24,704 bases of DNA from a virus. Where the stretch lies: IMG/VR virus record IMGVR_UViG_3300031857_001306, positions 1 to 24,704 of that record. One strand, 5' to 3'. Below are positions 4,247 to 24,704 of this stretch, piece after piece. Within the stretch, counting starts at the first letter, position 1. Each line of letters starts with the position of its first letter. The notes below the pieces were generated by a model that was not told the DNA's origin, made no database searches, and saw only the letters and a program-made list of their open reading frames with translations. The translations under genes and the position numbers were made by a program.

Positions 4247-4510
4247 ATGAATGACAACGTGAACAACAGCGAACCGCAACCCCCCGCACCGGATACCGTT
4301 CCAATTGAACGGTTGGTGGATGATATTTTGGGCGTGCAATGGCGCAAACCGGACGCGCACCCACAAACGCAAATCCTCCAAATGTTGATCGGGCGCGCCG
4401 TCACCAATTTGGTGATTGCGCACCAAACCAATTCCAACGCGGAACGTTTCGATGCAATTTCACGCGCACACGCCATCGTCACGCGTTTGGCGGTGGAGGG
4501 TCACCGATGA
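4247..4510 (+). CDS. Hypothetical protein coupled to the RecE-like gene
   Basis: An 87-residue acidic-to-neutral protein with GAAAGGG at 4234-4240. The first 20 residues are proline-rich and disordered; residues 20-85 are predicted mostly helical. Its stop overlaps the start of the exonuclease gene as ATGA, so the two are translationally coupled. Small genes in this position sometimes encode accessory recombination or replication factors, but this one is not recognisable. Confidence 0.75.
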   Translation: MNDNVNNSEPQPPAPDTVPIERLVDDILGVQWRKPDAHPQTQILQMLIGRAVTNLVIAHQTNSNAERFDAISRAHAIVTRLAVEGHR

Positions 4511-5343
4511 AACCAACCGGGCAAATCTTGGAATGTTCCGAATCGGAATACCGCGCCATTCGCGCCGCGAATTATTCCACGTTGAAACACGCGAACCGTT
4601 CCGCCGCGCACATGTTGGCGGCAATGTCGCCGCGTGATGCAACACCCGCCATGTTGTTGGGTTCATTGGTTGATGCAATGCTTTTCAGCCCGGACGATTT
4701 GGCGTTGCGTTTCGTTGCCGCGCCCGATGTTGATCGGCGCACCAAGGCAGGGCGCGAACAATGGGAAGCATTCAACAACGGATTGGCGGAAGGTTGCCGC
4801 GCCGTCGATTCCGAAACATGGGAAAAGGCGCAACGCATGGTTGACGGGATCCGCGCCAATCGCACCGCGCGCGCGTTGTTGAATGGCCATCGATACCAAA
4901 CGCCAATGGTGTGGGTTGACCAGGATACGGGCGTGCGTTGCAAGGCAATGTGTGATTCCGTGTTGCCTGGTGTCACGGTGACGGATTTGAAAACAACAAC
5001 CTGCGCGGATGCGCGCGAATTTGCACGCGCCGCGGCATCGATGGCGTACCACATGCAAGCGGCGTTTTATTGCGACGGTTGGCGCGAATGCACGGGTGAG
5101 GAGTTACCCTACACATTCATTGTTGTTGAATCCGCGGAACCGCATGCCGTCGCGGTGTATCGGTTGGATGATGCCGCGATTGATGCGGGCCGCGCCCGAT
5201 ACAAATCGGCATTGCAAATGTTCGCGGAATGCACGCGTTCCGGTGTGTGGCCGGGGTATGCCGATCATTTGCAAACGTTGGAATTGCCGCGTTGGGCCTT
5301 GGGCGGGGTTGCGATGGTCACAGCGGATGACCATCCGTTTTGA
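4507..5343 (+). CDS. RecE-like PD-(D/E)XK exonuclease
   Basis: A 278-residue protein resembling the catalytic domain of RecE/exodeoxyribonuclease VIII (the DUF3799 type). In order: a LLGSLVDAMLFSP segment (50-62), the DRRTKAGREQWEAF stretch (76-89) that is highly characteristic of the family, a TGVRCKAMCDSV segment with the metal-binding Asp150, DLKTTT (160-165) as the D-x-K core, and YHMQAAFYCDG (181-191) as the conserved Tyr/Gln helix. It is expected to digest one strand of dsDNA 5' to 3', making 3' tails for the RecT-like protein encoded next. The ATG at 4507 overlaps the upstream stop. Length fits the stand-alone nuclease domain. The identification is strong. Confidence 0.92.
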   Translation: MKPTGQILECSESEYRAIRAANYSTLKHANRSAAHMLAAMSPRDATPAMLLGSLVDAMLFSPDDLALRFVAAPDVDRRTKAGREQWEAFNNGLAEGCRAVDSETWEKAQRMVDGIRANRTARALLNGHRYQTPMVWVDQDTGVRCKAMCDSVLPGVTVTDLKTTTCADAREFARAAASMAYHMQAAFYCDGWRECTGEELPYTFIVVESAEPHAVAVYRLDDAAIDAGRARYKSALQMFAECTRSGVWPGYADHLQTLELPRWALGGVAMVTADDHPF

Positions 5344-5414
5344 ATGCTTCACATCGTCACCGCGGAAACGCGTTGATGATGTTTGCGGCAACGTCGCCGC
5401 GGAAAGGGAATGCA

Positions 5415-6314
5415 ATGAATGACAATGCGAAACGTGCGGGCAACAAACCCGCGAAACCCTCCCCGGACATGTTCACGGAATCCGCGGTTCAACCGCGCCC
5501 GACAATCGTCGCGGACGCGCCAACCGCGCCCGAACCCGTTGCGGTGGATGACATCGAAACCGCGGCGCAACCTGCTGTTGATGTTCCGGTGACCATCGAA
5601 ACAACAAACGAATTTCGCGCCCCGCCCGCGGCCCGCGGCGCAATCGTCGCGCACGATGGGTCATCGGTGTTGGCCGCGCCGGACACATCGCCGCGCATCG
5701 TCAACGGTGGCGTTGTGTGCGCATCGATGCGCGACGTGATGAACATGGCGCGCCACTATATCCGCGGCGCAATGGTTCCCCGCGGTTTGGATGGGCGTTC
5801 ACAAATCGAAACCGAATCACGCGTTGCCATTGCGATTGAATTCGGTTTGAACCTTGGCCTGACACCGCTCCAATCCCTGCAATCCGTGATGGTCACCAAT
5901 GGCCGCCCGTGTTTGTGGGGAGACGCGCCCATGGCGTTGGTGTCTCAACACAAGGCATTTGAGGGAACGAAAACAGAATGGGCGGGCGACGGTGACAAAT
6001 TCGGGTGTACGTTCACCGTGTTCCGTTTGGTCAAAAACAAATCGGTTCCGCATGCGTGGACGTTCACCATTGAGGATGCGAAACGCGCGGGGTTGTGGGG
6101 GAAAACGGGGCCATGGTCAACGAACCCCAAACGTATGTTGATGATTCGCGCGCGTGCGTTTGCGTTGCGTGATGCGTTCCCTGACGCGTTGCGCGGTTCC
6201 GGAATCGCGGAGGAAATGGAAGACATCCAACCCGCAACGGACAAAACCGCCGCATTGCAATCGCGCCTTGAATCCGTGGGGGTGTCGCGTGGCGTGGATC
6301 AAAATGAGGGTTGA
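5415..6314 (+). CDS. RecT-like single-strand annealing protein
   Basis: A 299-residue protein. Residues 1-100 are a Pro/Ala/Glu-rich, probably disordered extension. Residues 105-275 hold the RecT core: IAIEFGLNLGLTPLQSLQSV (139-158), a NGRPCLWGDAPMALV segment (162-176), DAKRAGLWGKTGPW (221-234) and PKRMLMIRARAFALRDAFPD (238-257), ending with an acidic EEMED. It anneals complementary single strands and pairs with the RecE-like exonuclease 72 bases upstream in a two-component recombination module used in phage replication and repair. GAAAGGG lies at 5402-5408. The N-terminal extension is longer than in many RecT proteins. Its stop overlaps the next gene by 11 bases. Confidence 0.92.
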   Translation: MNDNAKRAGNKPAKPSPDMFTESAVQPRPTIVADAPTAPEPVAVDDIETAAQPAVDVPVTIETTNEFRAPPAARGAIVAHDGSSVLAAPDTSPRIVNGGVVCASMRDVMNMARHYIRGAMVPRGLDGRSQIETESRVAIAIEFGLNLGLTPLQSLQSVMVTNGRPCLWGDAPMALVSQHKAFEGTKTEWAGDGDKFGCTFTVFRLVKNKSVPHAWTFTIEDAKRAGLWGKTGPWSTNPKRMLMIRARAFALRDAFPDALRGSGIAEEMEDIQPATDKTAALQSRLESVGVSRGVDQNEG

Positions 6315-9453: not shown

Positions 9454-9872
9454 ATCAATATTGGCGGTTTGTGCGCATGCGTTTCGGGGCGCGCGTGTTG
9501 ATATCGCGGCGCGGGCGTTCATTCCGTGAACAGGTTGTGATGTCGTTGCGGTGTCATTTCGATAGTTTCACACCGTTGGATCAACGGTTGCGCGTGCATT
9601 TGACGTTGCATCCACCGGACAAACGCAAACGCGATTTGGACAATTTCACCAAAGCGTTGTTGGATGCGTTGACACACGCGGGCGTGTGGAATGATGATGA
9701 ACAAATTGATGAATTGACGATAACACGCGGGCATGTGATGCGCGGCGGGCGTGTGTATGTAAAGATCGGAATCATTGATGCGCCAACGAAAACCAACATT
9801 GCGCCCGTTGATGACGTTGGGGGAGGCGGCCCGTCAAATGGGAATCAATCGCAACCTTGCGGGGCGGATTGA
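9423..9872 (+). CDS. rusA: RusA-like Holliday-junction resolvase
   Basis: A 149-residue protein. It opens with FPPSVNQYWR (6-15), the RusA N-terminal signature, and has KRDLDNFTKALLDALTHAGVWNDD in pieces from 69 to 92, including Asp71 and Asp73 (the D-L-D-N motif) and Asp91/Asp92, matching the catalytic acids of RusA. It cleaves four-way junctions, clearing branched DNA before packaging. A GGGAAGGGAGG site lies 7-17 bases before the ATG. The last 35 residues (from about 115) are low-complexity and overlap the next gene. The protein is somewhat longer than E. coli RusA, by this tail. Confidence 0.9.
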   Translation: MFFVPFPPSVNQYWRFVRMRFGARVLISRRGRSFREQVVMSLRCHFDSFTPLDQRLRVHLTLHPPDKRKRDLDNFTKALLDALTHAGVWNDDEQIDELTITRGHVMRGGRVYVKIGIIDAPTKTNIAPVDDVGGGGPSNGNQSQPCGAD

Positions 9873-10011
9873 ACGGGACGCGATACGAAAGATTCAGGAA
9901 GGTTTGCGGGCGGCCATTCGCGCCGATCCGCGGTTGGCCCGGCTTTATGGGCATGTGATCGGAAGGGAATCGAATGAAACGAATTGCGATGAACGCGACG
10001 ATGACGGATGA
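9811..10011 (+). CDS. Sigma region 4-like helix-turn-helix protein A
   Basis: A 66-residue protein. Residues 2-29 (TLGEAARQMGINRNLAGRIER onward to DAIRKIQ) follow the layout of sigma-70 region 4.2 (helix-turn-helix then an E-x-x-A-I-x-K helix). It resembles the protein encoded directly downstream, with about 16 identities over 53 aligned residues including GHVIG, so the two are tandem paralogues. The start is uncertain: 9811 keeps the first helix, 9838 would use a GGGAGG site at 9821-9826 but cut the helix, and an ATG at 9778 is also in frame. It overlaps RusA by 62 bases and the next gene by 38. It may bind DNA or RNA polymerase; no region 2 exists. Confidence 0.65.
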   Translation: MTLGEAARQMGINRNLAGRIERDAIRKIQEGLRAAIRADPRLARLYGHVIGRESNETNCDERDDDG

Positions 10012-10186
10012 AACGCCGCAAATGACATATGCCGACATCGGGCGACGGTTGAACATGTCCGCGGGCGCGGTGTATTGGGTTGAACAGCGGGCATTGCGAA
10101 TGATCCGCGACACCCTGCGCAATGACATTGAACGCACGCCCGCATTGCGTGACCGTTTCGGCCATGTCATCGGCGGTGACCAATGA
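9974..10186 (+). CDS. Sigma region 4-like helix-turn-helix protein B
   Basis: A 70-residue protein with a GGAAGGGA site 7-13 bases upstream. Residues 17-50 (MTYADIGRRLNMSAGAVYWV then EQRALRMIRDTLR) closely follow sigma-70 region 4 (TxxEIGxxLxxSxxxVxxxExxALxxLR). The C terminus ends FGHVIGGDQ, matching the GHVIG of the upstream paralogue. Without regions 2 and 3 it cannot be a full sigma factor; it could be a transcription regulator, an appropriator of host polymerase or a small DNA-binding protein. The stop overlaps the next start as ATGA. Confidence 0.75.
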   Translation: MKRIAMNATMTDETPQMTYADIGRRLNMSAGAVYWVEQRALRMIRDTLRNDIERTPALRDRFGHVIGGDQ

Positions 10187-10341: not shown

Positions 10342-11544
10342 ATGGTTGATCACCATGGGGGTTTTGATGTGGATTCATATTCCAACAACGTGTTGTCATT
10401 GTGTTCCGGCGTCGGTGGACTTGACATCGGATTTGCACTCGGAACGTTTGGCCGAAATCGCACAATCTGTTACGTTGAACGGGAAGCCTACGCGTGCGCG
10501 TTATTGGCAAAACGCATGGCGGAAAAAACCGTGGATGAAGCACCTATATGGACTGACGTTCACACATTCGATGGCCGCCCATGGCGCGGCATCGTGGATT
10601 CAATCTGTGGCGGCTACCCGTGCCAACCGTTCAGCACCGCCGGAAAACGACATGGTGCAAATGATCCGCGCCACCTATGGCCGTCAATTGTTCGAATCAT
10701 TGAAGAAATCCAACCGCGAATTGTGTTTTTCGAAAATGTGTCGGGACATCTCACACTCGGATTCGATACGGTTTGCAAAGATTTGGAACGATTGGGTTTC
10801 AACGTTGCGGCGGGTTTGTTCAGCGCGGCGGAAATCGGCGCGCCGCATGAACGCCAACGGTTGTTCATCGTCGGGTTGGCCCACGGTAACAGCGGGCGCA
10901 CCGGAGGCGCGTGCATTGACGGGCGCACCACGCGGCACGCGCAAAAATCCGACGATCATGGATGCGGTGCAACAATGGCACACGCCGCGCGCGTCGATGG
11001 CGGGCAACGAAAATCCAACAACATTTGTGACGCGCAATGCGGATCGGTCACCGGAATGTTTCCCGGGCCTTCCTGCGCAGGCGGAACGGTGGCCGACACC
11101 GTGTGTGAGTTCAGCGAACGGCGCATGGCATCCCAAGAGCGGGAAAGACTATCGACATTTGAACACAACGGCGGAATTGTGGAAGATGCCGACGGAATCC
11201 AATTGTTCCCACCAGGACCAAAAGATTTCGACATGGCCGACACCATGTCAAACGGATCACAAAGGATCGATGAAACTTGGACAACGGAAGGGACAACTAA
11301 GCGAGGCAACAGAAGTGAAATTCCATTGTTCCCACCTGGCCCAAAAGATTTCGGACAATGGGAACGAATCCTCCGCGACAACCCCCACATCGCGCCCGCG
11401 ATTGAATCCGAATTTCACGGAATGGTTGATGGGTTTTCCAATCGGGTGGACAGACTGCGCGCATGCGGAAACGCCGTGTTCCCATTGGTGGCCGCGTATG
11501 CGTTCGCGTCTTTATTTCCTGTTGTCGCAACAAATCCGCGATGA
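10342..11544 (+). CDS. DNA cytosine-5 methyltransferase
   Basis: A 400-residue C5 methyltransferase with all key motifs: I, LSLCSGVGGLDIGF (18-31), for SAM; IV, GGYPCQPFS (90-98), with catalytic Cys94; VI, ENV (131-133); VIII, QRLFIVG (172-178); X, near the C terminus, RLRACGNAVFPLVAAYAF. The segment between VIII and X (about 180-340) is the target-recognition region, with VADT/MADT repeats and two copies of LFPPGPKDF. AAAAAGGG lies 7 bases before the ATG. It methylates cytosine in a short target that cannot be read from the sequence, probably protecting phage DNA from restriction. A second long frame runs through the same DNA (10355-11572). ApG/CpT dinucleotides are more frequent in its recognition region than in most of the window. 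Confidence 0.92.
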   Translation: MVDHHGGFDVDSYSNNVLSLCSGVGGLDIGFALGTFGRNRTICYVEREAYACALLAKRMAEKTVDEAPIWTDVHTFDGRPWRGIVDSICGGYPCQPFSTAGKRHGANDPRHLWPSIVRIIEEIQPRIVFFENVSGHLTLGFDTVCKDLERLGFNVAAGLFSAAEIGAPHERQRLFIVGLAHGNSGRTGGACIDGRTTRHAQKSDDHGCGATMAHAARVDGGQRKSNNICDAQCGSVTGMFPGPSCAGGTVADTVCEFSERRMASQERERLSTFEHNGGIVEDADGIQLFPPGPKDFDMADTMSNGSQRIDETWTTEGTTKRGNRSEIPLFPPGPKDFGQWERILRDNPHIAPAIESEFHGMVDGFSNRVDRLRACGNAVFPLVAAYAFASLFPVVATNPR

Positions 11545-11572
11545 CATCTCCGAAACGTTGTTTGATGATTGA
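10355..11572 (+). CDS. Overlapping frame with WPTP-repeat / NPxFxEWLMGFPxGWT protein
   Basis: A frame of about 405 codons, shifted by one base from the methyltransferase frame, is open across that whole gene and 28 bases beyond. Its product has the features of a phage family often seen near methyltransferases: a KIWNDWVSTLRRVCSARRKS segment, then WPTV, WHTPRAS, WPTPCVS and WPTPCQT repeats, then NPNFTEWLMGFPIGWTDC. These correspond base for base to conserved methyltransferase parts: WPTP is VADT read one base off, and the MGFPIGWTDC region is the DGFSNRVDRLRACGN region read one base off. The ATG at 10355 has no ribosome-binding site, so expression by frameshift or not at all is possible. I am confident of the pattern, not of translation. 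Confidence 0.45.
   Translation: MGVLMWIHIPTTCCHCVPASVDLTSDLHSERLAEIAQSVTLNGKPTRARYWQNAWRKKPWMKHLYGLTFTHSMAAHGAASWIQSVAATRANRSAPPENDMVQMIRATYGRQLFESLKKSNRELCFSKMCRDISHSDSIRFAKIWNDWVSTLRRVCSARRKSARRMNANGCSSSGWPTVTAGAPEARALTGAPRGTRKNPTIMDAVQQWHTPRASMAGNENPTTFVTRNADRSPECFPGLPAQAERWPTPCVSSANGAWHPKSGKDYRHLNTTAELWKMPTESNCSHQDQKISTWPTPCQTDHKGSMKLGQRKGQLSEATEVKFHCSHLAQKISDNGNESSATTPTSRPRLNPNFTEWLMGFPIGWTDCAHAETPCSHWWPRMRSRLYFLLSQQIRDDISETLFDD
11202..11353 (+). repeat. In-frame direct repeat inside the cytosine methyltransferase
   Basis: A 29-base unit at 11202-11230 recurs at 11325-11353 with 27 of 29 bases identical. Copies are 123 bases (41 codons) apart, so both encode LFPPGPKDF in the methyltransferase frame and NCSHQDQKIS / HCSHLAQKIS in the overlapping frame. 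It suggests a duplication within the target-recognition region. Confidence 0.8.
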
Positions 11573-11588
11573 ACGAAAGGGAACATCA

Positions 11589-12758
11589 ATGAACACGCCG
11601 CACGCAACAGGGAAGATGTGGGAATTGTTCAACGGTGATTGTTTGCACGTCATGCGCGGCATGGCCGCGGAATCGTTTGATTCGATTGTTACCGATCCTC
11701 CCTACGGGTTGTCGTTCATGGGAAAAGATTGGGATCGTGGCGTACCGGGTTCACCGTTTTGGGTTGAGGCGTTGCGCGTTGCGAAACCCGGCGCGCATTT
11801 GTTGGCGTTCGGCGGAACGCGGATGTTTCATCGGTTGGCCTGCGCGATTGAGGATGCGGGTTGGTAAATCCGCGATTGCGTGATGTGGGTTCATGGGATG
11901 GGTTTCCCGAAATCGCACGATATCGCGAAGGCTATAGACAAATCCAATGGTTCATGGCGCGGACGATCAACCGACAAATCAACCGAAAAAAACCGTGCAA
12001 TGCAAGGCGCAAACTATGTTCGTGTTCCCAAAGGCGAACCTATTTGTTCGCATGCACATCAATGGAATGGATGGGGAACCGCGTTGAAACCCGGATGGGA
12101 ACCCGTGTTAGTGTGCCGCAAACCTATCGCCGCGGGCATGACCGTTGCGGGCAATGTTGTTGAACACGGATGCGGCGCGTTGAACATCGATGGTTGTAGG
12201 ATTCCGATGGGCGCGGAATACGATCCGACAAAAATACAACGGCAACAGCGCGCCAACGGATCAGTGCAATTCGGTTCATCAGGTTTGATCGGAACCGAAA
12301 TTCCAACATACAACGCGAATGGCCGATGGCCCGCGAACGTTGTTCACGATGGTTCGGAAGAGGTTGTGCGGTTGATGCCGGACGATGGCAACGGTTCAAC
12401 CGCGCGTTTCTTTTATTGCGCCAAGGCGGATGCGACGGATCGGGATGAGGGTTGCGAATCGTTGCCGTTGCGTGATGCGGGCGCATTGACCGGAAACGTT
12501 GATGGTTCATTGCGTGATGATCGATTGCAACGCCGCAACAACCATCCGACCGTCAAACCCAATGATTTGATGCGGTGGTTGTGTCGATTGGTCACACCAC
12601 CCGGCGGAACCGTGTTGGATCCGTTCATGGGTTCAGGTTCAACGGGAAAGGCGGCCATTGCGGAAGGGTTCCGTTTCGTTGGCATCGACCTATCAACGGG
12701 CTTTTGTGACATCGCCGCGGCCCGGATCGGATCCGCGCACAACCTGTTCAATGCGTGA
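11589..12758 (+). pseudogene. N4/N6 (DPPY-type) DNA methyltransferase interrupted by in-frame TAA
   Basis: Two parts lie in one frame. Part one (11589-11867, 92 residues, GAAAGGG at 11575-11581) has GDCLHVMRGM, then VTDPPYGLSFMGKDWD with the catalytic DPPY. It stops at TAA (11865-11867) right after IEDAGW. Part two continues IRDCVMWVHGMGFPKSHD and carries FFYCAKA, HPTVKPNDLMRWLC, TPPGGTVLDPFMGSGSTG (SAM-binding motif I) and VGIDLS. Relatives read AGWEIRD here, so one G-to-T change of GAA to TAA explains the break. Order (DPPY before the SAM motif) is that of beta-class enzymes. Restart at GTG 11880 or ATG 11883 is possible without a ribosome-binding site. Without readthrough or complementation of the two halves the enzyme should be inactive. 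Sequencing error or a mixed population is not excluded. Confidence 0.88.
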
Positions 12759-17032: not shown

Positions 17033-17922
17033 AGGTTGGGCATCCCCGGCAAATCGCGCCACCCGTCCGCGTCAACGAACAATTCCGACCATTCGATGCA
17101 CCGAGGCGATAGGGTCACATTTTCGTTGGCTATCAAATCCAATCGATAATAGGGATACCGTAACAACACCCCGCCATCCTGATCGGGTTCCGCGCCTTGT
17201 GTCAACGGGATATAGGCGACACCATCAACCGCGGCCACCCGCGATTCATCAAACCGAATGAATTGCGTTTGGCCATCGAATGGCATATAGGTTCCCTGAT
17301 CCCATTCCCATGTGTATGTGATCACAAAACGCGTTTGGTCTTTCGGATCTTGCGACACATCCGCGCCGATGAAATGATACCGTTGGCCCTGAATGACATG
17401 CACGTTGTCTTCCTGCGCCGCGATGACATCCAAATCGCGGGTGTTGGATGTTTGGAATTCAACGCGCAACGTGCGACGGATCCGGCGTTCGGTGATTTTG
17501 CGCACGCCCGCGCGCCAAATCGCAACCGATTCGCCGGTGTCCTCATTCGTCGCGGGCAATATCTTTTCGCCCCAACACCATGGAATTTCAACCTCAACCT
17601 TTGCGCGTTCCCATCCGAAAAACGGTTGCGCCGGAATCGATGTCGGATCCGTTGCGCGTCGTCCGCCGCGGAATGTGGAATAGGTCGCGTTGATGATGTA
17701 GTGTGAACCACCGCCGCGGCCCTCAATATCGATCCGATCCAACACCAATCCGAAATCCGTTGCGCCCGGGAATTGCGAAGAATCCGGGTGTTGTTCAAAC
17801 GCAACACGCGCCGAATGTTCATTCGCCGCATTCAAACAAATGAACGTCCGTGATGCGGCAACCGTGCCGTTCGCGTCCCGTGTGTATTTGCGCCCGTCTA
17901 CTTTTTCCGTGATGGTTGCCAT
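17029..17922 (-). CDS. Putative distal tail / baseplate protein
   Basis: A 297-residue protein, mixed alpha/beta, Trp- and Asp-rich, located directly after the tape measure gene, where siphoviruses encode the distal tail protein. A RTFICLNAANEHSARVAFEQ segment and the acidic aromatic YTWEWDQGTYMPFDGQTQF segment are notable. No catalytic motif. The ATG at 17922 overlaps the tape measure stop by one base. Identification rests on position, not on a recognised domain. Confidence 0.65.
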   Translation of the reverse strand: MATITEKVDGRKYTRDANGTVAASRTFICLNAANEHSARVAFEQHPDSSQFPGATDFGLVLDRIDIEGRGGGSHYIINATYSTFRGGRRATDPTSIPAQPFFGWERAKVEVEIPWCWGEKILPATNEDTGESVAIWRAGVRKITERRIRRTLRVEFQTSNTRDLDVIAAQEDNVHVIQGQRYHFIGADVSQDPKDQTRFVITYTWEWDQGTYMPFDGQTQFIRFDESRVAAVDGVAYIPLTQGAEPDQDGGVLLRYPYYRLDLIANENVTLSPRCIEWSELFVDADGWRDLPGMPNL

Positions 17923-19610
17923 TATCTACCGTCCCCGGTCTTTTGTATCAACACTTCCAACAGCGAACCCAAACGATTGATGCCAACCTCGATGTTGCCC
18001 GCGTTGAACAACGAATTGATTTCGCCGCGCAATTGCGCAAATTGTTCCTGAACCTGCCGGGCCTGTTCCGCGGCTAATTCGTTTTGCGCCTTTCGTTCCT
18101 CTTGCGCCTCTCGGTCAATGTTGCGCAACGTTTGTTGGTGTGTCTCTTCCAACAATTGCATTTTGCCGTTCAACGCGTATTTGGTTGCCTGATCCGTTTC
18201 GGCGGCAATCTCTTTTTCCAATCGTCGTTTGTTCGCCTGAAATTCCTCTTCAGCACGTTTGCGCGGATCTTCAATCAACGCGATTCGTGCGGCCTCATTT
18301 TCATCGCGGATGTTTTGTAACCGTTCATCGCGCCGTTCGCGTTCGCGTTCCTTCTCTTCCCGTTGCCTATCGGTTTCGGTGTCGGCCTTTTCCTGTTCCG
18401 ACTTTTGGAACGCGTCGATATCGTCGCGGTAGTTTTGATACAACAATTGTTTTTGTTGTTCCAAACTTTGGCGCGTTGCGTCATCCTTTTCCGCGTCAAT
18501 GCGTTTGTTCAATTGCCGCAAATCTTCGCGGAATTTCAAATCCAATTTGTCGGCCTCGGTTTTTGCGCCCGCCATTTGCAACCGCAAATTTTCCGATTCA
18601 ACCATTTCCCGGCGTTTGTCGCGTTGCGCCTCAATTTCGCGTTGCGCAATCGCGTTCACCTGATCAAGGTTTGGTTGCAACAAATCATTCAATTCTTTTT
18701 GTTTGTCTTTTAGTTTTTCCATCGTCACGCCCTGCAATCGCAGGAACGTGGCATCAATTTCCGCGGCGGTCAATGGAATACCGGCCAACCGTTTCGTTGC
18801 AATTTCAAACGGATCCGCTTCGGACAACAACGCCATTTGCGCGTTCACGTTGTCCAATTCGGTTTGATACGATTTCACGCGTGACAACGCGTCATTGGGC
18901 AATAGGTTTTCCGAAAACTTTTTGACCTCTTCCGCGCCAGTGGTCAAATGACCAATCACGAATTCGCGGATTGCCTGCCCAAGGTTGTACGCGTCCATTG
19001 CAACCTGTTTGAAAATGGCCAATTTGCCGAATGCGGCAAAAAGTTTCGTGGCCTCTTTCAAATCATCGTTGAAAAACTTGGTGAACGCGTTCGGCCCGCC
19101 AACCTGTTCCCCGTTTTTCGCAATGTCATCGACCGCCGCGGCGGTTTCTTTCGTCGCGGTTGTGGTTTGCTGTTGCGTTTGCAAACTTTGCTTTTGCACG
19201 TTTGCGATTTGTTGCCTATCCGTCAACTCGGCTTTGCGCATTTCGCGCAACCGTGTTTCATACGCGGTTTGTTCCGCCAACGCGGCCTCCTCCGCGTCGC
19301 GCTTTTCTTTTCCTATTTCAAACAATTTCTTTTGATATGCATCCTGTTCCAACAACGCGGTTGTTGTTTCGGATTGCGTCCGGCGCGACAATTCCGCCAA
19401 TTGTTCCCGGTATCTCAATTCCTCTTGTGCGGCCAATGCGCCTTGATATTGTTCCTCATCACCGCCAAGATTGGCCGCGATGGTTTCCATCGATGCCGTT
19501 TGCGATTGCACCGATGATTTGGCCGCGGCCATGCCCGCATCCAATTTGGACGTGTCCACGCCCAATTCGATGTTTGCCGCACCGATGGTTCCGCCGCCAC
19601 CCGTTGCCAT
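17922..19610 (-). CDS. Tape measure protein
   Basis: A 562-residue protein, almost entirely helical. Residues 1-50 begin GAANIELGVDTSKLDAGMAAA, the N-terminal motif of many tape measure proteins. Residues 60-150 and 320-500 are Glu/Gln/Arg/Lys-rich coiled coil (REEKERERERRDERLQNIRDE). A hydrophobic stretch about 190-225 (FFNDDLKEATKLFAAFGKLA) and further helices follow. It sets tail length; at about 0.15 nm per residue the tail would be near 84 nm. There is no fused lytic domain. No tail-assembly chaperone gene or slippery frameshift lies between it and the tail tube gene (13 bases). Ends with TAA. Confidence 0.85.
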   Translation of the reverse strand: MATGGGGTIGAANIELGVDTSKLDAGMAAAKSSVQSQTASMETIAANLGGDEEQYQGALAAQEELRYREQLAELSRRTQSETTTALLEQDAYQKKLFEIGKEKRDAEEAALAEQTAYETRLREMRKAELTDRQQIANVQKQSLQTQQQTTTATKETAAAVDDIAKNGEQVGGPNAFTKFFNDDLKEATKLFAAFGKLAIFKQVAMDAYNLGQAIREFVIGHLTTGAEEVKKFSENLLPNDALSRVKSYQTELDNVNAQMALLSEADPFEIATKRLAGIPLTAAEIDATFLRLQGVTMEKLKDKQKELNDLLQPNLDQVNAIAQREIEAQRDKRREMVESENLRLQMAGAKTEADKLDLKFREDLRQLNKRIDAEKDDATRQSLEQQKQLLYQNYRDDIDAFQKSEQEKADTETDRQREEKERERERRDERLQNIRDENEAARIALIEDPRKRAEEEFQANKRRLEKEIAAETDQATKYALNGKMQLLEETHQQTLRNIDREAQEERKAQNELAAEQARQVQEQFAQLRGEINSLFNAGNIEVGINRLGSLLEVLIQKTGDGR

Positions 19611-19623
19611 GTCGCCCCCGGTA

Positions 19624-20502
19624 TTACGTCACCGTGAATGTGGTTGCGTCGTTCAAACGCAATGAACCAGAAACCTTGATTGGTTGGCCAGGTGAAACCT
19701 CAATTGACAACGATTTCAGGAACGCCTTCGCGTTGTATGCATGCGTTGTCGCGCCAACAAACGTGTTGAACACCACCGCCACATCCGGCACACCGTCGCC
19801 GTCGGTGTCCCAATCGGGCGTTCCAATTGCGCCCGTTGTGGCGCGCACCAATGGCGGCAATGTTGATCCGACGGTTTCGGTCAATGACCCCGTGCCTTGG
19901 AACGTGTATGCCAAGGCCTGCTTTTCCGGTTTGCGGATCGGATTTGAAATTTGCGTGACAAACGCGGATCCGCTAAACGCCGGATCATTTGCGCCATCTT
20001 CCGTGATTTTGAACGTCGCGGTTGCCGCGGTTGCGTGCAATGCCGACGGAACGCGATATGCCACGGTTGTGTTGTCGTTCACCGCATGCGCGGTGTACGA
20101 ACCAGACCATTGGTATATCCCGTTCGGCATGTATCGTTTCGCCGTCGGCGCGGTGGCGTTGAATGCGGTTATTTCGATTTCGCCGAAATCAACATCCAAT
20201 TTCCAATCCTGCACATATTGCGCGTATCCGTTTGATGAACCCCATGTGACCAATCCGCTGTTGCCCGTGCGCGGCGCGGTCTTTGGGAAATGCCCGGTGA
20301 ATGACATCGTGCCGGATTGCAACCCCATCATTCGTTCAACACCTGCGCCCGATCCGGACAATTCGGTGATATCGAATGATTCGTTTTCGATTTGGAACGT
20401 GACCTCTTGAATTTTCAGCGCGGTCACCAACAACCGATTCAAATCGGTTGCGGATGTCACACTCGACAATGTTGCTGTTGATCCGGTGATGATGTATGGC
20501 AT
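19624..20502 (-). CDS. Major tail (tube) protein
   Basis: A 292-residue beta-rich protein between the tail terminator and tape measure genes. Typical features are an N-terminal beta-rich core with SGSGAGVERMMGLQSGTMSF and a C-terminal domain ending IKVSGSLRLNDATTFTVT. GAGGGAA lies just before the ATG. Residues about 240-250 contain WDTDGDGVPD, a calcium-binding loop like that of thrombospondin type 3 repeats, unusual in a tail tube. It would polymerise into the tail tube. Order and fold type support the call. Confidence 0.8.
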   Translation of the reverse strand: MPYIITGSTATLSSVTSATDLNRLLVTALKIQEVTFQIENESFDITELSGSGAGVERMMGLQSGTMSFTGHFPKTAPRTGNSGLVTWGSSNGYAQYVQDWKLDVDFGEIEITAFNATAPTAKRYMPNGIYQWSGSYTAHAVNDNTTVAYRVPSALHATAATATFKITEDGANDPAFSGSAFVTQISNPIRKPEKQALAYTFQGTGSLTETVGSTLPPLVRATTGAIGTPDWDTDGDGVPDVAVVFNTFVGATTHAYNAKAFLKSLSIEVSPGQPIKVSGSLRLNDATTFTVT

Positions 20503-20512
20503 TTCGATTCCC

Positions 20513-21013
20513 TCAAACGTTCACGGCCTGATTTCCAACCCGGCCCGCGAACGTCACGGTTGCCGTGTTTACCTGCAACGATTCACCGGGCGCGATGTCC
20601 GAACCTATCAACGTCCACCGTTCCGACGTCGCGCCCTGCACGTTTGTTGTTCCCACACTTGGCAACGCCAACAAATGGTTGTGAAACCCATACGTCGGCG
20701 TTGATCGGTTGCCGGATGCAATCATGGCATCACCAATCAACCGATCAATCAAAACCTCAATGCGATCCAATCCGCGTGCGTCTTCATCATAAACGGTGAA
20801 CGTCAAATTGCACACGCCCTCAATGCCCGTGAAATTGTTGTCCGCCGTCCATGTGATGCCGTAGACAATGAACGGGAACACCAATGCCGACGGGTTGCCG
20901 CGATTGAACGCGACACCTCCCGCACATGCGGACGTCCACGCACCGCCGGAATACAACGTGGAATCCGCCTGAATGCGTGTGAGTACCGCCCGCGCTACAA
21001 CCGCGCCGTTCAT
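20513..21013 (-). CDS. Tail terminator-like protein
   Basis: A 166-residue protein with an N-terminal MNGAVVARAVLTRIQADSTL helix and FPFIVYGITW, YDEDARGLDRIEVLIDRLIG and a beta-rich C-terminal half, the layout of tail-terminator (lambda gpU-like) proteins. The gene lies between a gp10-like gene and the tail tube gene, where terminators usually sit. It is coupled to the upstream gene by ATGA. Function is to cap the tail tube and join it to the head. Confidence 0.75.
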   Translation of the reverse strand: MNGAVVARAVLTRIQADSTLYSGGAWTSACAGGVAFNRGNPSALVFPFIVYGITWTADNNFTGIEGVCNLTFTVYDEDARGLDRIEVLIDRLIGDAMIASGNRSTPTYGFHNHLLALPSVGTTNVQGATSERWTLIGSDIAPGESLQVNTATVTFAGRVGNQAVNV

Positions 21014-21675
21014 TCAACCCCCCGAATCTTCGCGGTGTACCCCGCCCGTTTGAATCCGAAATTGATCCCGCGAACAAACGCATTGCGCATGTCCGCGTTG
21101 TTGCGTGACCATTCCAACGCGGGCCGCATGAACGGGCGTTTGGGCATTTGCACCAATGGTTTCAGCACGAACACGGGCGCATTGGAACGGATTTGTTCAA
21201 CGCGTTTGCCCGCGGCATTCGTGAAATATTGCCGCGATTTCTTCGCGTCAACGCCAACCGCCATCAAATTCCCGCGTTTGGATTTGAATATGCGGAACGG
21301 CCCAACATCACGAATCGATTTCGTACCAATTTGCAGGTTCAATTCTTTCGCCTGATCATTGACGGCAACGCGCAAAAACTTTTTGGTGACGGGCCGAATC
21401 GTTCCGCCGAATTCGTGCAATGCCCCGTATTTGATAGATGACCCCACACGCGCCACAACCGGGTTGCGCATTTGGTATGTGATCGAATCGCGCAATGCGC
21501 CACGTTTTTTTGCGGGCGGTGAACCTACGGGTGACGGTTTGTATTTTCCCATTGCCGGGAATGATTCCTGCACATGCCGCACAACGCGTTCCGCCATCCG
21601 TTGCACGCCAAACCCCGCGGCAATTTTGGTAGCCTGAATGAACGGTTGCCATTGTGCGAAATCAAACCGCGGCAT
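21010..21675 (-). CDS. HK97 gp10-like tail completion protein
   Basis: A 221-residue basic protein. The conserved core is PPAKKRGALRDSITYQ (about 53-68), KYGALHEFGGTIRP (82-95) and KRPFMRPALE near the C terminus, matching the HK97 gp10/tail-component family (PGxLRxSI ... YAxxxEFG ... PFLRPAL). A segment around VGPFRIFKSKRGNLMAVGVD is an insertion. The ATG at 21675 overlaps the upstream stop. It takes part in head-tail joining. Confidence 0.88.
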   Translation of the reverse strand: MPRFDFAQWQPFIQATKIAAGFGVQRMAERVVRHVQESFPAMGKYKPSPVGSPPAKKRGALRDSITYQMRNPVVARVGSSIKYGALHEFGGTIRPVTKKFLRVAVNDQAKELNLQIGTKSIRDVGPFRIFKSKRGNLMAVGVDAKKSRQYFTNAAGKRVEQIRSNAPVFVLKPLVQMPKRPFMRPALEWSRNNADMRNAFVRGINFGFKRAGYTAKIRGVE

Positions 21676-22047
21676 TCATGTTTCCCGGAATACGTTCAAT
21701 TGATATACGCGCCCTGCTGAACACAAATTCAACGGTTCGCCCGTCACCTGATACACCACACCATCAACCGTGATGGTTGCAATGTGGTTGATGATTGAAC
21801 CCGTGTTGGTTCCCGTTGATGTTGTCGGCGCAAGAAAGATCGTGATTTGTGTTGTGCCCGTTTCGCGTTTGTAGATCGCGGAATCGGATGTGCTACTCGG
21901 TTGCACGAAACAACGAACGGTGTACGTTGTCGATGCCGTCAATTCAAACGCGCCGGATGTTTCTTGCCCCGCTGTTCGCGTTGTCACCGTCGCGGATTGT
22001 TGCAACAACCCCAACGGAATCGGCATTGATGACCCGGCAATCGGCAT
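21676..22047 (-). CDS. Head closure / head-tail adaptor protein
   Basis: A 123-residue beta-rich protein with SATVTTRTAGQETSGAFELT (18-37) and VDGVVYQVTGEPLNL (94-108), the sandwich pattern of head-closure proteins of the SPP1 gp16 / Hc1 type. It sits between the gp6-like and gp10-like genes, the usual place. The start is ATG at 22047, with a second in-frame ATG seven codons later. It would plug the connector after DNA packaging. Confidence 0.75.
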   Translation of the reverse strand: MPIAGSSMPIPLGLLQQSATVTTRTAGQETSGAFELTASTTYTVRCFVQPSSTSDSAIYKRETGTTQITIFLAPTTSTGTNTGSIINHIATITVDGVVYQVTGEPLNLCSAGRVYQLNVFRET

Positions 22048-22048
22048 T

Positions 22049-22666
22049 TCAAATCACCCCCGCGCCGCGGAACGTGCTGAACAAATGCAATTGCGCGCGC
22101 GCCGCCTCATCCGGTGTGGCGTATGTGACGGAATACGCACCCAACGATTGCGAACGCAACGCGGTATCACGCCCGATAGATGAATACAACCCATCAACCA
22201 TTCGGCAAATCGCGCCCTTCACATCCGCCGCGGGCGCGGCGGTGACGTATACCACACGCACGCGGCCCCACCGCGGCATCCATTGCCATGTTGAAATCAC
22301 TTCACGATCCGAATCGGCATCACGAACAACGCGTCCGTTTTGCGTTCCGTTGTATGTGACGATTCCGAACCGCGCATCCAATCGGTATTTGGTGGAATCA
22401 ATCGCATCACCCAACGTGTTGTCATCGTTGATCGGTGTTATCGATGTGACCGATGACACCGGGAATTCACGCAATGACAATTCCCCGGAATCGGTTTTAT
22501 AATCTTCCGTCCGCGTTGCCGCCTCAAACCCGTTTGACAAATCACGGTCACACATGCGGCGCAATGCCGCGTGCGCCTCATCAAGTATGTTTTGCAACCG
22601 GCTATCGTCCGCGGTTCCGGTGATCCCTGCATGCGTTTTGTATTCGGCCAACGTGACGATTGCCAC
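22049..22666 (-). CDS. Gp6-like head-tail connector protein
   Basis: A 205-residue protein. The N terminus (VTLAEYKTHAGITGTADDSR, then LQNILDEAHAALRRMCDRDL) is the standard opening of phage gp6-like connector proteins; LSLREFPVSSVTSI and the segment starting WGRVRVVYVTA are further conserved parts, and a C-terminal helix follows. The start is GTG at 22666 with GGGGTGAA just upstream. It forms a ring under the portal. Confidence 0.9.
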   Translation of the reverse strand: MAIVTLAEYKTHAGITGTADDSRLQNILDEAHAALRRMCDRDLSNGFEAATRTEDYKTDSGELSLREFPVSSVTSITPINDDNTLGDAIDSTKYRLDARFGIVTYNGTQNGRVVRDADSDREVISTWQWMPRWGRVRVVYVTAAPAADVKGAICRMVDGLYSSIGRDTALRSQSLGAYSVTYATPDEAARAQLHLFSTFRGAGVI

Positions 22667-22680
22667 GGTTCACCCCACGT

Positions 22681-23295
22681 TCACGCGAATGGCGCGGCGG
22701 TCATCGGAACATAATTGACGAACGCAATTTCCAATTGAACGGTTGAACCCGTTCCCGTGATCGATGCCGCGGCGGTTGTGGTCAACGGCAACACCCATGA
22801 ACACCCGCGCAAATCGAAACCGCAACCAACCTGCAAATTGGTTCCGCTGATTTCGCCGTTCACGTCGGTGTATTTGTATACCGAATCCCTGATGTTATTT
22901 GTTCCGTCGATACCGTAACTTGTGCCAACGGTACTCATGGTCACCGAATCCAACCGCATGAATCGCATTGTGCCATCATTGGCAAATGCGCCCGTTGATT
23001 CCGTGTATCCCGACTCCGGCCCATATACACCATACAACGAAACCGCCGCGGGCGTTGCAATCGCGGTGATTCCCACCGAATACCGCGCACGCGCCAACAC
23101 GCGATTTGCCCACGGTGGCACACGGCACGGTTTCACATTGCTGTTGGAATATGTCGCGGGTGTGCGCAACACCGTTGATGTTTCAGCGGTTGCCGTCAAA
23201 TCGGAATGAACAACAACCCAATCCGTTTGAGCGTATCCGGCATAGCACACCGGGCCGCCCGTAATGTTCCCACCAATTCGCACGCCCGCGCCCAT
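22681..23295 (-). CDS. Putative head protein, beta-rich
   Basis: A 204-residue protein made mostly of short strands, Thr/Ala/Gly rich, with a LARARYSVGITAIATPAAVS segment and a VQLEIAFVNYVP C-terminal end. AAGGGGAA lies 5-12 bases before the ATG at 23295. It lies between the capsid genes and the connector, where head decoration or head fibre proteins usually are. No family recognised with certainty. Confidence 0.65.
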   Translation of the reverse strand: MGAGVRIGGNITGGPVCYAGYAQTDWVVVHSDLTATAETSTVLRTPATYSNSNVKPCRVPPWANRVLARARYSVGITAIATPAAVSLYGVYGPESGYTESTGAFANDGTMRFMRLDSVTMSTVGTSYGIDGTNNIRDSVYKYTDVNGEISGTNLQVGCGFDLRGCSWVLPLTTTAAASITGTGSTVQLEIAFVNYVPMTAAPFA

Positions 23296-23338
23296 GTTGT
23301 TCCCCTTGTTGCAATGTCAACGGTTGATCAAATCCCGC

Positions 23339-23358
23339 GCCGCGATTTTCACCGCGGC
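23339..23358. other. Small hairpin in the gap between two head genes
   Basis: GCCGCG (23339-23344) and CGCGGC (23353-23358) form a 6-bp stem with an 8-base loop. On the coding (minus) strand a pyrimidine tract (CTCTTCCCTTTCTTTCG) lies upstream of it. It could modulate mRNA stability between the highly expressed capsid genes and the following ones. It has no terminal T-run, so it is not called a terminator. Confidence 0.35.
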
Positions 23359-23382
23359 AACGGGCGAAAGAAAGGGAAGAGT

Positions 23383-23799
23383 TTACGGGATCAACTGTTG
23401 CGCCAATCCGCGTTCGGATGCGGTGGTGGGCGTGACTTCCGCGCGGTGCAACAGACACACCGAAGAAACCAACGATGCCGCCGCGCCCGGATCCGCAACC
23501 AATTTCAAATATCGCTTGGTTTTGCGCAAATCGATGAACGCAACAAACACCTTGTTGTCATCGGTTGACGTGACCGGATCAACGAACGTTCCGCCCGTGA
23601 TGGCCGCGAAACCTGAACCCGATGTGTCGGAATGGCCCACGGACAATTCATCCATGGTTGCACCCAACAGGCCCGATTGAACAATGACCGTGGCGTAGTC
23701 AAAACCAAGGGTATCAACCTCGGTGGTTGTGGCCGCGGTTCCGTTCACGCTGATCGGTGACAACATCGCCGCAAATTTGATGTTTTGTGTATCAATCAT
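23383..23799 (-). CDS. Conserved phage head protein (downstream of capsid)
   Basis: A 138-residue protein with the pattern of a family often encoded directly after phage capsid genes: VDTLGFDYATVIVQSGLLGA, TDDNKVFVAFIDLRKTKRYL and SERGLAQQLIP. GAAAGGATTTCAGAA directly precedes the ATG at 23799, the strongest ribosome-binding site of the late operon. Its role is unknown; a capsid decoration or stabilising protein is plausible given its position and high-expression start site. Confidence 0.75.
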   Translation of the reverse strand: MIDTQNIKFAAMLSPISVNGTAATTTEVDTLGFDYATVIVQSGLLGATMDELSVGHSDTSGSGFAAITGGTFVDPVTSTDDNKVFVAFIDLRKTKRYLKLVADPGAAASLVSSVCLLHRAEVTPTTASERGLAQQLIP

Positions 23800-23820
23800 T
23801 TCTGAAATCCTTTCAATATG

Positions 23821-24704
23821 TTACGACGTGGCCAAACACACAACCGCGCCCGGGACGCGTGATGCGGGCGTTCCCGATGCGTTGCCGACATCGTGAACGG
23901 TGACACCGAAACGGTTCACACCGCGGAACGCGGTGGTGTCGGATTGGAAACCAACGGACGCATCCGTGGCGATTTGCATTCCGCCACCAACCTGAATCGC
24001 CTTGGCCGCAAGGTTGAACGCGCCATACAACGCGCAAATTTGCGTTCCGGCGGTGATGCGCGGCATGACCTGCGAAAACACAACGGGCGCGCCAAGGAAA
24101 ATCGGTTGGCGGATTCCGTTTGCAATTTCAATCGACGTGACACCGCCCGCGGCCAACGCAAGGCGCGCCATCACGTTCCAATAGAATTCCTTGTGAACAA
24201 CCCACACCGGGTTGGCGGAATCGACATAGGAAGGCGCGCGGCCAACCACCGCCTCAAAATCGGCCAACGTCAACGCGGAATAGGATGAACCTGAACCGAC
24301 AACGTATCCGGCGATATTGGCAACCGTTCCCGAAAGACTTGCAATCTTGGAACGGAATCCGGTGTGGCCGCCATAGGTTGACGTGCCATCACCGTTGAAC
24401 ACCGCCTCATCTTCCTTGTCGGCCATTGCATACGCGTGTTCACGCGCCACGAAATCCGCGAACGAAATCGCGGAATCGTTCAACAATTCGTTGGACACGG
24501 TGGTGAACGCGGTCATCTTATTTGCGACAACCTGCACGTTGTTCAACGTCGGATCGGACGCGGTGATTGAACCCGCTTCACCCGGCCAATACACCGTCAC
24601 GCCACCCGTGCGCCGCGGCATTTGCACAACGTCGGAACCAACGGTCATCACGTCCAACACCTGACGCGCCGCGCCGCGGACTTCGCGCAAATCGATCAAT
24701 TGCG
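23821..24704 (-). CDS. HK97-type major capsid protein (5' end outside window)
   Basis: About 294 residues of an HK97-fold capsid protein; the start lies beyond the window edge and the TTG near 24699 is internal, since the frame is open upstream (QLIDLREVRGAARQV). Diagnostic features are VQVVANKMTAFTTVSNELLN followed by DSAISFADFV, KEDEAVFNGDGTST, a VWVVHKEFYWNV segment, GVTSIEIANGIRQPIFLGAP and VVFSQVMPRI, as in the Phage_capsid family. The missing part would include the N-terminal arm or scaffold region. It ends with TAA, followed by the coupled head gene 21 bases on. It forms the capsid shell. Confidence 0.93.
   Translation of the reverse strand, partial: QLIDLREVRGAARQVLDVMTVGSDVVQMPRRTGGVTVYWPGEAGSITASDPTLNNVQVVANKMTAFTTVSNELLNDSAISFADFVAREHAYAMADKEDEAVFNGDGTSTYGGHTGFRSKIASLSGTVANIAGYVVGSGSSYSALTLADFEAVVGRAPSYVDSANPVWVVHKEFYWNVMARLALAAGGVTSIEIANGIRQPIFLGAPVVFSQVMPRITAGTQICALYGAFNLAAKAIQVGGGMQIATDASVGFQSDTTAFRGVNRFGVTVHDVGNASGTPASRVPGAVVCLATS

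Follow-up and report, generated by a model that had tools for sequence, protein, structure and literature searches.

A widespread phage C5-cytosine methyltransferase gene with two conserved overlapping frames that may encode two subunits of one enzyme

Two overlapping frames at a phage methyltransferase locus

The window analyzed here, a 24,704-nucleotide stretch of viral DNA (IMG/VR record IMGVR_UViG_3300031857_001306), carries on its plus strand a methyltransferase gene with two long overlapping frames, which we designate P0 and P1. The frames, their candidate start sites and the end of P1 map as follows.

10342..11544, plus strand: P0, catalytic part of a C5-cytosine methyltransferase; frame 0, 400 aa from ATG 10342
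10357..10361, plus strand: GGGGG, Shine-Dalgarno-like, 5' of the P1 ATG; predicted anti-SD pairing of -9.1 kcal/mol
10367..10372, plus strand: ATGTGG, nested start combining the P1 ATG at 10367 with a P0-frame GTG at 10369
10369, plus strand: GTG, alternative start of P0 in frame 0
10367..11572, plus strand: P1, second protein and proposed recognition subunit; frame +1, ATG 10367 to TGA 11572, 401 aa
11552..11569, plus strand: ETLFDD, C-terminal tail of P1, where some relatives have a sliding-clamp motif (QLALF)

In profile searches, P0 matched PF00145 (E 3e-36) over residues 16-183 only. P1 matched phrog_1008 (E 1e-24), with residues 87-375 aligned to positions 41-285 of the 329-position profile, and also phrog_27243 (E 1e-12); the same searches returned no Pfam or NCBIfam family for P1, and no HNH match was found for it in Pfam or PHROGs.

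The initial annotation had described an open +1 frame of about 405 codons, and the frame is indeed open from 10346 to 11572 (408 aa counted from a TTG, 401 aa from the conserved ATG 10367). The WxTP repeats and the segment RLNPNFTEWLMGFPIGWTD attributed to it are both present, and the coincidence of VADT with WPTP, and of RLRACGN with the GWTDC region, was confirmed as overlaps read one base apart. The length of the frame, also taken as a mark of a second protein, is only moderate evidence. Permutation of the synonymous codons of the window gene yielded zero +1 stops in 0.12% of trials (mean 4.3 stops), and the window contains a 416-aa antisense ORF elsewhere, so we dismissed ORF length by itself as evidence. 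This other ORF (19160-20410, plus strand) is longer than P1, lies antisense to minus-strand structural-gene ORFs (17922-19610 and 19624-20502) and is probably a chance shadow ORF. The window gene alone is thus only moderately surprising, and relatives were needed to decide.

The surroundings are those of a tailed phage: the plus strand carries genes of the exonuclease VIII-like and RecT-like kinds (4339-6314), and the minus strand encodes major head, head-tail adaptor, neck and tail proteins (19627-24699). Directly 3' of the P0/P1 gene lies another gene for a DNA methyltransferase (phrog_67, DPPY motif; 11592-12758), which is broken between two frames near 11867-11880 and corresponds to a single open frame (1055-2659) in the relative L005; the interruption is either a real break or a sequencing error. 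On the 5' side (9775-10186), two short tandem ORFs (LGEAARQMGIN... and ADIGRRLNMSA..., each ending in GHVIG) resemble related helix-turn-helix proteins and are possibly duplicated.

Distribution of the second frame and selection upon it

A +1 ORF overlapping the methyltransferase was present in all 164 viral loci first examined, 80 of which had been found through P0 patterns only, and P1 is kept in about 370 loci overall. Frequent second-frame stops in relatives, which the initial annotation had named as evidence against dual coding, did not materialize: the 164 relatives contain 342 +1 stops against 954 expected under synonymous-codon permutation, whereas the +2 control frame contains 2415 against 2398 expected. 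An AT-rich P1 type (LNPRFVAEMMGFPxNW), which we had presumed might be a stand-alone family, was identified in 120 further viral loci; the methyltransferase overlaps P1 on all 120 of these viral contigs, which rules out a stand-alone family. The +1 frame also lies over the methyltransferase in 80 loci on bacterial genome contigs, assigned by record title to Alphaproteobacteria, Myxococcota, Chloroflexota, Bacteroidota, Bacillota and others, and under a stricter model the scored partner was missing only from two fragments at contig edges. Among the viral and genome loci, no P1 was found without a C5-methyltransferase. Both frames are likewise open in Synechococcus phage Ssp-JY39 and Erwinia phage vB_EhrS_59. 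The dual-frame arrangement is thus present in hundreds of phages and prophages from many bacterial phyla. In four loci (L330, L347, L284 and L044) two ORFs that lie in different frames share the P0 profile between them, through indels or sequencing errors. Klebsiella aerogenes and Citrobacter plasmid matches, considered as possible EaeI-type systems, turned out to be phage-like or fragmentary.

At motif IV, ordinary C5-methyltransferases show weak shadows resembling P1, indicating that part of the P1 similarity at this motif is imposed by P0, and the window gene taken alone, with a P of about 0.001 for zero +1 stops, leaves some room for P1 as a passive shadow ORF whose similarity merely mirrors methyltransferase conservation. 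Ordinary C5-methyltransferases, however, show no depletion of +1 stops (884 versus 872), and their longest +1 ORF covers 17% of gene length versus 72-99% in P1-bearing groups. The absence of both depletion and a long +1 frame from ordinary enzymes indicates that P1 is a feature of one large clade rather than of C5-methyltransferases at large, and a full P1 was detected in 2 of 47 methyltransferases taken by PF00145 alone.

We measured selection with our own simplified OLGenie-style count, in which differences between aligned relatives are classed by their effect in each frame; as doubly synonymous sites are few, we relied on the contrast with flanking genes and with the +2 frame. Across 137 independent pairs, the catalytic part of the gene gave a dNN/dSN of 0.25 for P0 and a dSN/dSS of 0.50 (95% interval 0.44-0.57) for P1. 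Over the middle of the gene, P0 is neutral (dNN/dSN 0.98, 0.81-1.19) and P1 strongly constrained (dNN/dNS 0.23, 0.19-0.28), with 63% of differences falling at the first codon position of P0, which is the third position of P1, and at the end both are constrained (0.31 for P0, 0.27 for P1). The two +1 tests yielded 1.32 and 0.99 in the flanking ordinary genes used as controls, and +1 constraint was also recovered in the first data set (68 pairs), in the AT-rich set alone and in the genome set alone. A close relative (IMGVR_UViG_3300042691_006772; L004/L005), in which both frames are kept at 77% identity in the best segment, illustrates the same behavior: in its most variable stretch (codons 200-320) differences are distributed 15:6:3 over codon positions 1:2:3, as expected if the +1 frame is the selected one.

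A further property of P1 is the occurrence of sliding-clamp motifs. Of 367 P1s, 54 carry a motif of the Q[LI]xLF type within their N-terminal 60 residues and 25 carry one within their C-terminal 25, against 0.24 and 0.17, respectively, expected from shuffling; the enrichment exceeds 100-fold, although the counts are not independent, some motifs being shared by related sequences. The window P1 does not contain the Q-L-x-L-F motif, its tail reading SETLFDD versus AQLALFG in Synechococcus phage Ssp-JY39. This enrichment, together with selection tests that exclude +1 neutrality, leaves the passive shadow ORF hardly tenable.

The initial annotation's proposal that the gene encodes two conserved proteins is supported by purifying selection in both frames over the 137 pairs, read against the flanking-gene and +2 controls, and by the recurrence of P1 in all relatives, and P1 is almost certainly a real, selected protein. 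The separate phage protein family that the initial annotation saw in the second frame is not an unrelated one: P1 was seen only where it overlaps a C5-methyltransferase, and it resembles that enzyme's missing half.

Allocation of methyltransferase motifs and translation starts

The conserved elements of the two products interleave along the gene as follows.

10393..10431, plus strand: P0 motif I region (LSLCSGVGGLDIG), aligned to ordinary C5-methyltransferases
10475..10552, plus strand: P1 N-terminal conserved module (KPSxxxxWxxxWxxxxWxxxLxG), alignment consensus
10604..10684, plus strand: P1 segment facing P0 motif IV (ANRSAPPEND...ATYGR), conserved and partly imposed by P0
10609..10635, plus strand: P0 motif IV with the catalytic PCQ (GGYPCQPFS), aligned to ordinary C5-methyltransferases
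10729..10740, plus strand: P0 motif VI (ENV), aligned to ordinary C5-methyltransferases
10781..10849, plus strand: P1 helix (IWNDWVSTLRRVCSARRKSARRM), AlphaFold helix 137-171, pLDDT about 90
10852..10872, plus strand: P0 motif VIII (RQRLFIV), aligned to ordinary C5-methyltransferases
10877..11251, plus strand: P1 WxTP-type repeats, proposed target-recognition region; repeats at 10877, 10976, 11090, 11180 and 11234
11399..11455, plus strand: P1 motif-IX-like segment, aligned by hhalign onto motif IX of ordinary C5-methyltransferases (E 0.08)
11452..11478, plus strand: P0 motif X (RLRACGNAV), within a confident C-terminal helix (366-397) of the AlphaFold model

Motifs I, IV (PCQ), VI (ENV), VIII and X identify P0 as a C5-cytosine methyltransferase, but P0 does not combine a recognition domain and motif IX in one chain, as a monomeric C5-methyltransferase does. 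Its profile aligns with ordinary C5-methyltransferases over motifs I-VIII only (hhalign, E 6e-36), and no profile match to motif IX was found in it. The AlphaFold model has a core (7-183) with pLDDT above 90 and the confident motif-X helix, separated by a mostly disordered stretch (184-323) in the middle, which is the part under neutral evolution, and its Foldseek matches to M.HaeIII and M.HhaI align about 170 columns of these 324-327-residue enzymes.

The P1 consensus LNPxxVEWLMGxPxGWT finds its best match among ordinary methyltransferases in motif IX, at a weak E of 0.08, and the motif-IX profile scores P1 above shuffled sequences but below threshold. The AlphaFold model of P1 shows no confident fold (mean pLDDT 59), and neither a PDB sequence search nor Foldseek returned structural relatives. 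Motif regular expressions matched only 7 and 8 of 27 ordinary methyltransferases; given this insensitivity, we dropped a regular-expression tally of motif IX in P1 and not in P0 as proof and used profile tests in its place. By simple pattern, 315 genes had motif X exclusively in P0 and 9 exclusively in P1, and no gene had it in both frames; these counts are lower bounds because the pattern matched 8 of 27 ordinary enzymes. In the Bacilli loci L457-L461, P0 stops after motif VIII, and a single P1 frame holds the repeats together with the IX-like segment and motif X; motif X also lies in P1 in L094, L102 and L144. P1s that contain motif X align with the C-terminal portion of the methyltransferase family phrog_363. 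The occurrence of motif X in either chain, and its detection never in both, is as predicted for two parts of one enzyme.

Taken together, these data suggest, with a probability of about three in four, that P0 and P1 are complementary parts of one C5-cytosine methyltransferase, P1 being a separately initiated second subunit. P0 would be the catalytic subunit, with motifs I-VIII and, in the window, X, and P1 would supply the target-recognition region (the WxTP repeats) and the motif-IX-like segment; translated P1 would form a heterodimer with P0 and confer its DNA specificity, and the associated pair would methylate DNA during infection or lysogeny. In lineages with the QLxLF motif, P1 may in addition be recruited to the sliding clamp. 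P1 could instead be a real overlapping protein that is no enzyme subunit, such as an independent regulator or clamp-binding factor, since selection and clamp motifs show only that it is a protein and no fold or PDB match ties it to methyltransferases. This alternative is unlikely, as P1 was never seen without a methyltransferase, P0 lacks its recognition domain exactly where only P1 is selected, and motif X can reside in P1s that resemble the phrog_363 C-terminus.

The translation starts bear on how two subunits would be produced. ATGTGG (Met-Trp) opens P1 in 84 relatives and creates a P0-frame GTG two bases after the P1 ATG; in 23 relatives a P0-frame ATG or GTG lies four bases 5' of the P1 start, and in 36 a P1-frame stop immediately precedes the ATG. 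Predicted Shine-Dalgarno pairing averages -6.7 kcal/mol at P1 starts versus -3.4 for internal ATGs. P1 of Firmicutes-type genes begins within P0 and in most cases has a Shine-Dalgarno of its own; in AT-rich Bacteroidota-type genes the P1 start often has none. P0 and P1 would thus begin at nearly one site, either at the nested AUG/GUG of AUGUGG or at starts a few bases apart. The frameshifting that the initial annotation entertained would have ribosomes move to the +1 frame after motif VIII and make one fused polypeptide, possibly shifting back for motif X. At L457-L461, where P0 ends just past motif VIII, such a shift would indeed produce an ordinary full-length enzyme, but P1 has its own start and Shine-Dalgarno, with a TTG at -7 to -12 kcal/mol in most split loci, the part of P1 located 5' of any shift site is under selection (dSN/dSS 0.50), and the window would need a second, opposite shift to include motif X. 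We consider the fusion distinctly improbable, and separate initiation of P1 appears likelier in view of its conserved start, the accompanying Shine-Dalgarno and the selection on its N-terminal part.

Taking the two-subunit reading further, it is somewhat more likely than not that these genes form a phylum-spanning class of phage enzymes, with catalytic and recognition subunits in two frames of a gene of about 1.2 kb, AUGUGG co-initiation by which they are made together, a motif-X module that can switch frames and a second subunit that, in many lineages, couples methylation to the clamp used in replication. The two-subunit reading would explain the missing recognition domain of these methyltransferases, and in lineages with the clamp motif it suggests replication-coupled methylation. 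Many database records hold only one frame, so that hundreds of phage methyltransferases have probably been described with half of the enzyme missing, and recoding the "MTase ORF" for expression would abolish the remaining half. The clade would also provide many natural examples of extended same-strand dual coding in which the two partners belong to a single enzyme, and would allow a direct test of the reasons for keeping two subunits in one DNA stretch.

Relation to known two-chain methyltransferases

The label of phrog_1008 reads only "DNA methyltransferase" and phrog_27243 is without function; neither label mentions an overlapping frame. Some phage annotators have already recorded the internal frame, as "g50 internal gene" in Redbud and as both frames in PhiXhv-28, and our searches of an open-access library returned no description of clade-wide dual coding. 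A term search of PMC3711429 and PMC5009743 returned no passage on a recoded phage C5-methyltransferase. In the out-of-frame HNH insertion of the ShiLan type, too, a phage methylase gene holds an additional protein in a different frame, but that insertion is mobile and encodes an HNH nuclease; P1 gave no match to HNH proteins, extends over nearly all of the gene and occurs in every member of the clade.

In the two-chain enzyme M.EcoHK31I (YGGCCR), the small chain is reportedly translated in a different frame of the gene that encodes the large chain (Lee et al. 1995, Nucleic Acids Res). PMC8936443 describes M.BatI, a prophage enzyme, as a small C5-methyltransferase whose motif I reads CxGxxG and whose recognition domain is short; it is toxic to E. 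coli, and remains so when catalytically mutated. M.BatI may belong to the clade, as a lead only, and if it does, an overlapping P1 frame could be one reason for its toxicity.

PMC3404938 places motifs I-VIII of M.AquI on chain one and IX-X on chain two, a split like that of loci L457-L461. M.AquI differs from the window gene in having part of the variable region in its first chain, and motif X of the window stays in the first chain. The same paper assigns motifs I-VIII and X of M.EcoHK31I to the large chain and IX to the small one, with the recognition domain predicted in the large chain. M.EcoHK31I is part of a restriction-modification system, unlike the window gene, its predicted recognition domain contrasts with the neutral middle of the window P0, and in the window gene the second frame begins at a nested start and runs through almost the entire gene. 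The motif split is nevertheless the same if the weak motif-IX assignment in P1 holds, a likeness drawn from published motif allocation, and calling the system "undescribed", as the initial annotation did, was too strong. By this putative motif allocation, the window gene would fall in with the two-subunit C5-methyltransferase type, as a widespread variant of it.
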